Of a stretch of DNA of 64,000 nt, positions 1,346 through 62,070 are shown piece after piece. How positions within the stretch are numbered: the stretch's first letter is position 1; each line of letters begins with the position of its first letter. The notes beneath the pieces are model-generated. The model searched no databases and was not told the origin of the DNA. It worked only from the letters and a program-made list of their open reading frames with translations. This stretch comes from Nannobrachium achirus (taxonomy: Eukaryota > Chordata > Actinopteri > Myctophiformes > Myctophidae), in assembly GCA_963921795.1 (NCBI GenBank), contig OY997645.1, positions 17,299,365-17,363,364 on the forward strand, read 5' to 3'. Made by a program: the position numbers and the translations under genes.

Positions 1346-1490
1346 CTTATCGCCTATCCCTAAACTTCTTACTATTTTGAAGAACATATTAAAATACTTC
1401 AAATAACCAATCTAAATGAGCTTGTAGATCAGCTATTTGAAATATTCAATATTTCAAAATAGCGAAAAGAGTTTAGGGATAAGGGGTAAG
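1346..1490. repeat. 145-bp inverted-repeat element with one hairpin-module arm
   Basis: The ends form an imperfect inverted repeat: CTATCCCTAAACTTCTT on the left and its complement near 1466-1485 on the right. The middle holds GAGCTTGTAGATCAGCTATTT (about 1419-1438), one arm of the hairpin module found throughout the window. This is probably a small MITE. Confidence 0.55.
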
Positions 1491-1508
1491 GCATGGACAA
1501 AAATAGAG

Positions 1509-1659
1509 CCTGAAGTGTCCTTGAGTAAGACATTGCATGGGTTGCATGGTTGCCTTTGTTGTTGGTGTGTGTGTATGTGTGTGTGTGTGTGTGTGTGAAT
1601 GGGGACATTGTAAAGCACTTTAGATAAAGGTGCTATATACTGTACATGCAACATTTACC
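1509..1659 (+). mobile_element. 3' part of a tRNA-derived SINE
   Basis: Contains GTGTCCTTGAGTAAGACA, then a (GT)n run (about 1563-1597), then a tail with TTGTAAAGCACTTTAGATAA and a tATATAcTG segment. The same layout appears on the - strand in the more complete SINE at 46752-47016. The tRNA-like head is missing here, so the copy is 5' truncated. Confidence 0.65.
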
Positions 1660-2927
1660 ATTTTATTACACCCCTTATAAATGTGTTGCAGTAATACCTC
1701 CATTTCACTGAAGCTGCTAATCATTTTCACTCTTAACTGCATGGGGGGCTATTAGTTAATTTGACTTGTTTTTTTGTTTTTTTTGGCAATGAAGCTCATT
1801 TGCATAGAAAGGGGTCGATTGGGCACCATCTGTATGCATTACCTCAAATACATGCAAATAGCACCGGAGCACTGAGATACTATTTGCTTGGTAACACAGT
1901 TAAGCCTGCAGCATACTTCAAACCAAGTCGAACCTTTCTTTTTTTTTCTTCGGTTTTGGCAGGTCTTGCCAAAACAAACAAAATTCTCCAGGGCCGGCTC
2001 CGTAAATTTATGCTCTCTGCAGCGCCATAACTTTTGGAAATTAGACTCCACCCACCATAGGCTATAGTGCTGGAAGAGTCAGCGGTTTTACCACGATCGC
2101 CGCCCTTTGTTTACATCAAACTCTGACGTGCTTTGACATATGTAATTTGTCTCAGTGGACAAAGACTGTGCTATCATTCTCCATTAATTAATTGCCATCT
2201 GGTTGCGTTTGTCTCCCAGAGAGGAACTATCTAAGGTTTCTACCTCCTAACCAGCCAACATTTCTTCTAAACATCCATAGCAGATTGTGGATATAATTCC
2301 CATCTCTGCTGTGACGTTTGGCCAGTTAGAAAATCTTGGAGGTGCAAGTACTGCAGAAACAAACTTCGGCAAGGCATTAATATTCTCTGCAAAGACGTCA
2401 ATTTGCTCTTATCGATCTGCTGAAGCCCGTAAAAGATTTACTTTGTTTAGAGTATGTTCCAATCTTAAGGTGTGCAATTCACCCTCACAGTTCGCTTTGA
2501 GAGTTTCTTATTGTCTTATTTCCGTGCCCGTTTTTTGAATAGGTTTTCTGGCCAGTGAATTCACCACTGACTGAGTCAGGATGACAGAACATCTTGACAT
2601 CAGATCGTTAAATTTCAGTATCTGAATATGGAGGAAAATCTGTTTCCTGAACCTGATTTGATTGAAAAGAAAATGCTTTCCGGCTGTGGCACATTCATGC
2701 CGTGTTCCACTTTCAAGGTACATAATACATTTATTAACGCTGATGAAAGCAGCACGTTTGAAATGTCATGCCTTGGGTGTTAATAAATTCATACAGTGTG
2801 GAAGTGGGATCCTGTGTCTGTGTGTTGGGTCTGTCTTTATTATTTTGGATTCAGTCCAGCTGCTGTTGAGGACTGGGTTGTGTTTGTTTTAGTGCATATT
2901 CCTCTACATGGGTGAAATCAAGTATGC
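1660..2927. other. No feature recognised
   Basis: Apparently single-copy sequence. The only local structure is a short hairpin around 1952-1975 (GTTTTGGCA...TGCCAAAAC). No exon signals stand out. Confidence 0.45.
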
Positions 2928-2988
2928 GAACGCACGCACGCACGCACACACGCACGCACACACGCACACACACTCACACAGACACACA
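2928..2988. repeat. (ACGC)n/(AC)n microsatellite
   Basis: A run of ACGC units grading into AC units. Confidence 0.9.
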
Positions 2989-60900: not shown

Positions 60901-61028
60901 TTCAGTCTTAGTTGGTTTGGCGTTGTCTGCGAGTGCACGTCAGCGATTGTGGACTTAGTTGTGGGGGGAAAAAAGGGGTGAAAAGGAGGTTTTGGGGGGA
61001 AGGGGGGGGGTCAAAGGTGGGTTGTGTA
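57991..61028 (-). other. fli1: Probable fli1 3' UTR and downstream region
   Basis: AT-rich, low-repeat sequence directly downstream of the fli1 stop. Possible - strand polyadenylation hexamers (+ strand TTTATT) lie near 58998, 58376 and 58031. Which one is used cannot be told. A TA repeat lies at 58145-58172. Just after the stop (about 60960-61020) the mRNA strand is strongly C-rich. Confidence 0.4.
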
Positions 61029-61558
61029 TTAGTAGTAACTGCCCAGGTGGGACGGGACGTGGGTGTTGGGGTGGCGGGGAACGCCGGGGTTAGGGTAGAT
61101 CCCCGCGGGGGGCGAGCTCCAGTACGTGGGGGTGGGTCCAAAGAAGTTAGAGGAGGTGACTGGCATGGACGGGGGGTGGGGCGACACGAAGTTGACCTTC
61201 TGCTGGTGGGCATGGTAGGAGGGCACGTAGGCCAGGTCCGAGGGGTACTTGTACATGGAGGACTCGGTGGGGTGTGGCTGCAGGGCCTGCGCGATGCCGT
61301 GGAAGTCAAACTTGTAGGCGTAGCGCTTGCCGTGCACCTTGGTCATGATGTTCTTGTCGTAGTAGTAGCGCAGCGCGCGGCTCAACTTGTCATAGTTCAT
61401 GTTGGGCTTGCTCTTGCGCTCGCCCCAGCGCCGCGCCACCTCGTCCGGGTCCGTCATCTTGAACTCGCCGTTGGTTCCCTCCCAGGTGATGCAGCCGGCG
61501 TTGGCGCTGTCGGACAGGAGCTCCAGCAGGAACTGCCACAGTTGGATCTGTCCAGAGC
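61029..61558 (-). CDS. fli1: fli1 last coding exon (most of the ETS domain and the C-terminus)
   Basis: Encodes the last 175 residues of the Fli1 ETS-family transcription factor, a nuclear regulator of blood and endothelial development that binds GGAA sites. It starts at an acceptor (CTCTGTCCCCAG|GC) with two bases completing a Gly codon. It reads [41 protein letters not shown] and [20 protein letters not shown], with the two recognition-helix arginines in SRALRYYY. It ends [19 protein letters not shown] and stop. That ending is FLI1 and not its close relative ERG, which ends SHLGTYY with a different run-up. The middle ([17 protein letters not shown]) differs modestly from the mammalian form. 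The exon is far more GC-rich than its surroundings. Confidence 0.95.
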
Positions 61559-61609
61559 CTGGGGACAGAGGTCAGATAAAATGAACAGCGGTCAGGCAAG
61601 AGGTGCTAA

Positions 61610-62070
61610 TAGGGGCATCACAACAGGGGGGGGAGTGGGACTGAGTTACTAAGGCCCAAGGTGAATGGGCGTTAATTATTTTATACTTTAGCTATTGAAA
61701 CATAGCAGATATACAAGCTCACGGCCCGTTTCTGAGCTTCTGGGGGGTCCCTGGAACTAAATGGGGGTCTGTGGCCAAATATATATCATAGTGGGGTCCT
61801 TCACATGAAAAGGTTTGAGCACCACTGACTTAGAAACATATGTTTTTCCAAAAACCTTAGAAGGATTTGAAGACTTGCACAAATCTTCACGATTTTTCAA
61901 AATAGCAGATCTACAAGCTCGCAGCACGGCACTTGGTGCTGCGCTGTGAGCTTGTATATCTGCTATTTTTCAAAGATAGTAAAAGCACAAAATAACGCGT
62001 AATAAATAATGCGTTCCCAGAATCCTTGTACCCAGGGCCCAGAATTTGGTGCGGCAGTGCGGCAGCCCTG
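61610..62070. mobile_element. Family-B element in the fli1 intron, 8-bp duplication
   Basis: GGTGCTAA flanks both sides (61602-61609 and 62071-62078). The element starts TAGGGGCATCACAAC and ends GGTGCGGCAGTGCGGCAGCCCTG. The first hairpin (about 61700-61735) is reduced to one arm. The second (about 61898-61970) is nearly complete with tip GGCACTTGGTGC. It lies between the last two fli1 exons. Confidence 0.85.

Follow-up and report, generated by a model that had tools for sequence, protein, structure and literature searches.

The question raised by this stretch of the genome of the myctophid fish Nannobrachium achirus (GenBank assembly GCA_963921795.1, contig OY997645.1, positions 17,299,365 to 17,363,364 of the forward strand; 64,000 nucleotides, hereafter the window) is how one short hairpin comes to lie inside several families of mini-transposons whose outer ends are unrelated. 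A preliminary description of the window had reported about 17 hairpins and about 9 lone arms, distributed among at least four families with terminal inverted repeats (A, B, C and D), and had proposed that the hairpin is itself a tiny mobile unit or is swapped between elements. We located all four types of outer end as described, with modules (hairpins or lone arms) inside A, in both arms of B and inside C and D; the number of hairpins agreed well (16 with two or fewer mismatches per arm), that of lone arms did not (12 with one mismatch or fewer). The families go beyond four, flank clustering of 235 arms from 338 kb having given 23 multi-arm clusters and 49 single arms. The explanation that we favour, and consider probable, is that TTAA-bounded mini-transposons of a perhaps piggyBac-like kind inserted into hAT mini-transposons and then multiplied together with these, the hairpin being kept by selection, likely as a binding site. 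Movement of the hairpin between outer families, as proposed, is supported, the moving unit looking larger than the hairpin and bounded by TTAA.

The core of the hairpin, GATCTACAAGC, occurs exactly 23 times in the window, where arithmetic on random letters gives an expectation of ~0.03 per 128 kb, and 463,584 times (231,940 + 231,644) in the 1.66-Gb host genome, compared with 97 matches (54 + 43) of the reversed control. Genome-wide, both arms are exact in 77,081 hairpins (control, 0). A content-blind sample, made up of the window and 25 stretches of 10 kb at round coordinates (314 kb in total), held 136 modules, 78 of them hairpins, from which we extrapolate to ~0.7 million modules genome-wide; since detection allowed up to two mismatches to the core, fixity of the core was partly selected for. 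When the same 314 kb were searched for palindromes blind to their sequence, 141 were found, of which 77 were of low complexity, and the core was present in 54 of the remaining 64, one obvious module (L035:6593) having been scored as non-core. The IMG/VR database contains 18 stretches with the 16-mer, none of them with a hairpin, and no match to the 20-mer, which has a single match, without a hairpin, in bacterial and archaeal genomes. Some related observations may be recorded here. On contig C1 the four exact core matches that head the list (L001-L004) fall within 8 kb, are nearly alike in hairpin and flanks, and may represent a tandem array of the family labelled F4. Related hairpins with GACCTCCAAGC and GCTTGGAGGTC, in which the core itself is altered on both arms, are found at L028:4390-4427 and 5744-5778. 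Another palindromic family of ~140 bp, without the module, is present at L037:4024-4164 and 9437-9577, and a near-perfect palindrome of 145 bp (68 of 70 pairs), also without the module, lies at 16519-16663 of the window, its inner 19-mer not being seen elsewhere in the 338-kb sample.

A target duplication of 8 bp is a feature of hAT transposons. At 16 hand-picked elements of families A, B, D and F8, the duplications comprised 103 matched bases, compared with a random mean of 58.3 and a maximum of 73 in 300 draws; 7 or 8 of the 8 bases were duplicated in four of five A, four of seven B and two of three D elements (again hand-picked), some of the B flanks being CA repeats. The outer elements of A, B and D thus appear from their sequence to be hAT-like, each with different ends. 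Family C, with ends ATATCG..TTGTCGGG, has no nameable duplication.

Within these outer elements lies a second set of ends. The hairpin of family A belongs to an inner T element of ~200 bp, laid out as TTAACCACTTGAACCC - hairpin - GGTTCAAGTGGTTAA, and family B contains a double-hairpin element, E, of 520-600 bp, with the end TTAACCCATTTAGA and one hairpin near each end. Exact TTAA-to-TTAA hairpin copies of ~200 bp number 3,290 genome-wide (1,621 + 1,669), and a hairpin arm is joined to AAGTGGTTAA within 15-45 bp at 9,986 places (5,037 + 4,949), the controls giving 0 and 0 in both searches; among the matches listed, which are the first of contig C1, these junctions have A-, E-, F5- and F10-like flanks and a few C-like ones. 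In the 314-kb sample an exact TTAA-type end accompanied 15 of the 136 modules, compared with 1.2 at random places (maximum 4 in 200 draws), and 24 at one mismatch, compared with 4.2 (maximum 10). At two mismatches such ends were found in 8 of 10 T/A, 19 of 44 E, 6 of 7 F8, 3 of 3 F7, 2 of 7 D and 1 of 3 F5 modules. In T copies the TTAA ends stand well outside the hairpin, which is therefore not the whole element. The copy at L033:171-374 has both TTAA ends and lies inside an A element with its own exact 8-bp duplication. Three E copies are free of B ends: that at 49028-49606 of the window, earlier taken for a B copy, which it resembles without being bounded by CAGGGGCGTCAC (its ends are of TTAA type, imperfect on the left); L028:7919-8512, again imperfect at one end; and L038:7222-7744, imperfect at both. 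Two further copies, L060 and L061, judged by eye, end in TTAA on one side and are enclosed by still other ends, apparently of hAT type. TTAA is present at both ends of hairpin copies, and an empty site is known for a hairpin-less E element only: this small E-type element is a clean TTAA insertion in one F8 copy (L041), the TTAA being single in four empty F8 copies.

The outer ends had been described as unrelated, and this holds for the ends themselves, not for the sequence beside the hairpin. Flanks were aligned outward from the hairpin, using strings from consensus or single copies and single-letter shuffles, in a screen of 171 pairs with 150 shuffles and then in 20 pairs with 400 shuffles. 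Ten pairs of the screen beat all 150 shuffles where ~1 was expected, five of the ten being the two sides of one family; for F8_L-F7_R none of the 150 was as good. None of 400 shuffles was as good as the matches C_L-E_out1, C_L-E_out2, E_out1-F5_R, C_R-L060_R (TTAA-ended), C_R-F9_L, D_L-F10_L (TTAA-ended) and T_R-D_R, C_L-E_out1 and E_out1-F5_R exceeding the best shuffle by one point only. Next to the hairpin, B flanks are thus homologous to those of C, and A flanks to those of D. A further matter is whether hairpins and carriers share a history. In a tree of 51 hairpins of 53 bp, which is rough (53 columns, 21 of 37 forks open), the carrier label needs 10 changes, where the minimum is 7 and the shuffled mean 22.6 (0 of 200 as low); E forms one clade (99/95), C and F4 need two changes each, and D, F5 and F8 mix. 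Hairpin type thus mostly follows carrier, and this largely concordant result goes partly against the movement or exchange of bare hairpins first proposed, an identical hairpin in D and F8 (see below) speaking in its favour.

The usual hairpin of 53 bp consists of two 25-base arms and a 3-base loop, with AAAATAGC-type bases extending outward; exactly this length is found in 51 of 86 hairpins (150 modules). Five hairpins that were folded gave -45.6 to -72.3 kcal/mol (z -11.8 to -17.7). Among 26 of the 51, hand-chosen across families, pairing was seen in 89.3% of cells, compared with 82.1% after shuffling (0 of 500 shuffles as high), and both sides had changed in 73 cells, compared with 28.4 after shuffling and 9-20 in slid versions (0 of 500 shuffles reaching this), the shuffles overstating independence through the shared descent of the copies. 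The number of pair types in these hairpins showed no rise over shuffles (157 of 500), and six pairs, all in TACAAGC, were invariant, which is partly built in, the rows having been picked via the core. Within families C, E and F4 (35 of the 51, pairs unmatched in the family consensus being excluded), one-sided changes predominate, 63 compared with 15 two-sided. Between families, eight representatives (three consensus and five single hairpins) compared in 28 non-independent pairs gave in sum 98 two-sided differences, 95 of them still paired, and 51 one-sided. Since changes are one-sided within families and two-sided between them, resident copies would decay one arm at a time, with pairing maintained in the source lineages. 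The pattern fits selection on source copies, or equally a copying step in which one arm serves as template for the other, between which our data do not distinguish; change on both sides of the stem between families suggests selection on the hairpin.

Our current working hypothesis is of a superfamily of small TTAA-bounded transposons, non-autonomous and perhaps piggyBac-like, that have the hairpin as their conserved centre; T and E elements of this superfamily would have inserted at TTAA into hAT-type mini-transposons several times. The compounds would then have multiplied by hAT transposition, placing one hairpin in several hAT families, A, B and D among them, while family C would descend from a related TTAA element; older copies may have lost their TTAA ends, leaving only the hairpin recognisable. 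Selection on source copies would hold the core in sequence and the two sides of the stem in pairing, and the hairpin may have been retained because it helps the TTAA element, or both TTAA and hAT elements. By analogy with the palindromes of piggyBac ends, its role is most likely that of a putative binding site for a TTAA transposase or host factor. Piggybac transposase genes are present in the genome, many of them without inner stops (116 scored of 952 candidates). Core matches beside five of these genes were considered as evidence and rejected, there being 8 exact ones in 16.8 kb compared with ~4.7 expected. In one piggyBac gene region (L055:56-779) a stretch with a hairpin is present twice, ~670 bp apart, with a family C element in between.

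Several observations weigh against this hypothesis. No TTAA-type end at one mismatch was found in 112 of the 136 modules, and at two mismatches the count of 49 of 136 compares with 23.6 in shuffled flanks, family C contributing 2 of 19 and modules without a family 8 of 43. The T ends read CCAC and the E ends CCCA, where the piggyBac terminal motif is CC[C/T]T (PMC2872659), and for this reason the elements are called TTAA-type here and are not filed as piggyBac; no TTAA terminal pair was found at five piggyBac loci, in pieces of 3.3-3.4 kb that may be too short. Some flank pairs are weak (T_L-F10_L, 74 of 400 shuffles as good; E_out2-F5_R, 39; T_L-D_L, 6), the flanks of F7 and F8 match no TTAA element firmly, and those of F64 match nothing tested. 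An identical 53-bp hairpin occurs in D (window 23571) and, with unrelated flanks, in L028:1557 and L050:3316, both labelled F8, the label of the latter resting on one flank. Hairpin-free hosts were also sought. A pattern for empty A (one mismatch or fewer) had 18 matches, compared with 2 for the control; neither of the two exact ones, both of which were read, is an empty A, the other 16 being unread, and no empty B host was found, the two pattern matches having two mismatches each and not being read further. Because no hairpin-free A or B host was found, we infer the order of nesting from the two nested sets of ends. The A copy L043:6602-6963 was rejected as an empty site, a collapsed hairpin having left both arm edges.

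The alternative that survives best is that the bare hairpin (~71-85 bp) moves or is exchanged as the unit, its AAAATAGC edges being the points of insertion, template switching or gene conversion. As this would have it, 201 arms show a sharp loss of conservation at 9-10 bases beyond the core, although constraint on the inner 20 bases would equally give a sharp edge. The identity of the D and F8 hairpins, despite a difference at 11 of 11 bases at offsets -20 to -10 (D at window 23571 and F8 at L028:1557), and the flanks of F7, F8 and F64 without firm ties to TTAA elements also speak for it. Against it stand the agreement of the hairpin tree with the carrier and the homology of several flanks far past the hairpin edge; nor did we notice any duplication at that edge. 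The clean junctions with and without the bare hairpin that would attest its movement were not shown at any of 154 sample places; 29 of these have short spacing, by eye mostly arm remnants of collapsed hairpins or alignment offsets, and L050:8374 (family C) and L031:2210 (F5-like), which are without a recognisable hairpin, are undecided in this respect. The module-free C copy of the preliminary description does exist (52927-53076), with an unrelated interior, and so forms no clean pair of this kind. The tip said to be shared by C and D was rejected, as it rests on a single C copy (15678) with differing arms, CGTCGC on one and GCGAGG on the other. On balance, we regard movement of the bare hairpin as unlikely.

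More unlikely still is pure shared descent with constraint, by which one ancient element gave rise to all families and only the hairpin stayed alike. Besides the B-C and A-D flank homologies, it draws on the divergence of the inner 20-mer, which in copies chosen by flank was lower than that of the adjacent flank in six of seven tests: E outer, 3.3% compared with 11.9% (23 of 33 rows kept); E inner, 3.3% and 12.6% (15 of 23); C right, 3.9% and 9.9% (9 of 18); C left, 0% and 8.0% (6 of 8); T right, 2.4% and 6.0% (T1, 7 of 13); and T left, 5.0% and 5.6% (T1, 8 of 8), D running opposite with 16% and 11.7% (5 of 11). Rows with more than 8 mismatches in the inner 20 bases had been dropped, and this filter and subfamily differences affect the figures. 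In a separate test, nine C copies had 0-0.8% in the arms and 5.1-7.2% in the flanks, outside CpG, eight T1 copies were mixed (arms 5.2% and 0%, flanks 3.1-8.4%) and five D copies were again opposite (arms 7.4-7.8%, flanks 4.7-5.3%). Shared descent is disfavoured for A, B and D, whose hAT-type ends with 8-bp duplications differ and whose inner element has TTAA ends of its own, because one descent does not yield two nested sets of ends. Retention of the hairpin for its RNA, as a structure or as a precursor of small RNAs in the manner of Made1/mir-548, is equally improbable; the very stable folds (e.g. -72 kcal/mol, z -17) and paired stem changes that could suggest it are set against the absence of any Rfam match in the window at gathering score and the fact that a perfect palindrome folds well whatever its role. 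A search of the window for tRNAs found none.

Insertion of TTAA-type elements into hAT-type ones, as we favour it, has its closest precedent, among those we found, in the CMITEs of the coral Acropora, for which TTAA duplications, a 75-bp internal region more conserved between families than the terminal repeats, the origin of a new element by insertion of one into another and an estimate of ~1,600 copies are described (PMC2872659). In both systems the internal region is alike while the ends differ, a result favoured here by the finding of copies via the core. The scale is different, those copies comparing with 463,584 core matches here, and a palindrome with covarying stems and hAT-like hosts, unlike CMITEs as described, distinguish the present elements, the comparison being drawn from their published description (PMC2872659). 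The ends of piggyBac and piggyBat, which have a TTAA target, as the elements studied here appear to have, are described as containing palindromic sites, in piggyBac asymmetrically placed and 19 bp long, that are bound by the cysteine-rich domains of both transposase monomers (PMC11707139); the palindrome here measures 71-85 bp, and no transposase is tied to it. Made1 (hsa-mir-548) is likewise a near-perfect palindrome, a mini-transposon folding into a long stem, and is described as an 80-bp element by itself (PMC1784062), whereas our hairpin is part of a larger element. The Kolobok T2-MITEs of Xenopus are likewise abundant and have a TTAA target, as appears to hold here, their ends being described as starting AGGRR (PMC6004289), compared with CCAC or CCCA here.

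The elements of the window are listed in Table 1.

Table 1. Hairpin-bearing and related elements in the 64,000-nucleotide window
Element	Position	Strand	Details
Family A outer element, hAT-like ends	4562..4997	+	hairpin 4802-4866 inside
Family A outer element, second copy	19791..20270	+	
Inner TTAA-bounded T element in family A	19898..20115	+	TTAACCACTTGAACCC, hairpin, GGTTCAAGTGCATGTTAA
Family B	12776..13221	+	E-type end TTAAACCATTTAGA at 12776; hairpin and further arm; outer CAGGGG-type end 13210-13221
Family B	14443..14993	+	TTAACCCATTTAGA end at 14443; hairpins 14510-14544 and 14829-14907; outer end 14982-14993
Family B	45443..45866	+	8-bp duplication CTGCCAAC; hairpin 45518-45602; arm at 45772
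Free-standing double-hairpin E element, TTAA-type ends	49028..49606	+	hairpins 49084-49162 and 49491-49563
Family B/E copy	61610..61969	+	CAGGGG-type end at 61610; arm at 61708; hairpin 61899-61969
Family C copy	3486..3683	-	hairpin 3593-3663
Family C copy, one arm left	11565..11757	+	
Family C copy	15594..15840	+	hairpin 15660-15748
Family C copy	46363..46576	+	decayed hairpin 46419-46502
Family C ends without module, unrelated interior	52927..53076	+	
Family D copy	22220..22648	+	hairpin 22328-22414; imperfect duplication CTCCACTG/CTCCTCTG
Family D copy	23339..23747	+	hairpin 23554-23640
Hairpin without recognised outer ends	55819..55861	+	110 bp downstream of Kir-like gene

The Kir-like gene is a single open frame (54585-55709) for an inward rectifier potassium channel, with Kir4.1 (KCNJ10) as its best PDB match. 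Elsewhere in the window a tandem duplication with a period of 2,342 bp (29660-34230; 99-100% identity over ~2.2 kb) adjoins frames matching reverse transcriptase (27003-27536 and 33154-35100), and is either a recent event or an assembly effect in a retroelement region.

Two kinds of mini-transposon in a single 1.66-Gb genome are connected by one short palindrome, present in hundreds of thousands of copies. It may be, though we think it rather doubtful, that the palindrome, with its fixed core and covarying stems, acts as a portable signal for amplification, which any mini-transposon could capture by TTAA insertion or exchange and which would boost hAT-type and TTAA-type hosts alike; if true, this would account for a copy number of several hundred thousand in a single genome. 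Should nesting and co-amplification prove right, the case shows how transposases of two superfamilies can serve the multiplication of one element. The paired change of the stems around a nearly fixed core makes it testable why mini-transposons keep internal hairpins.

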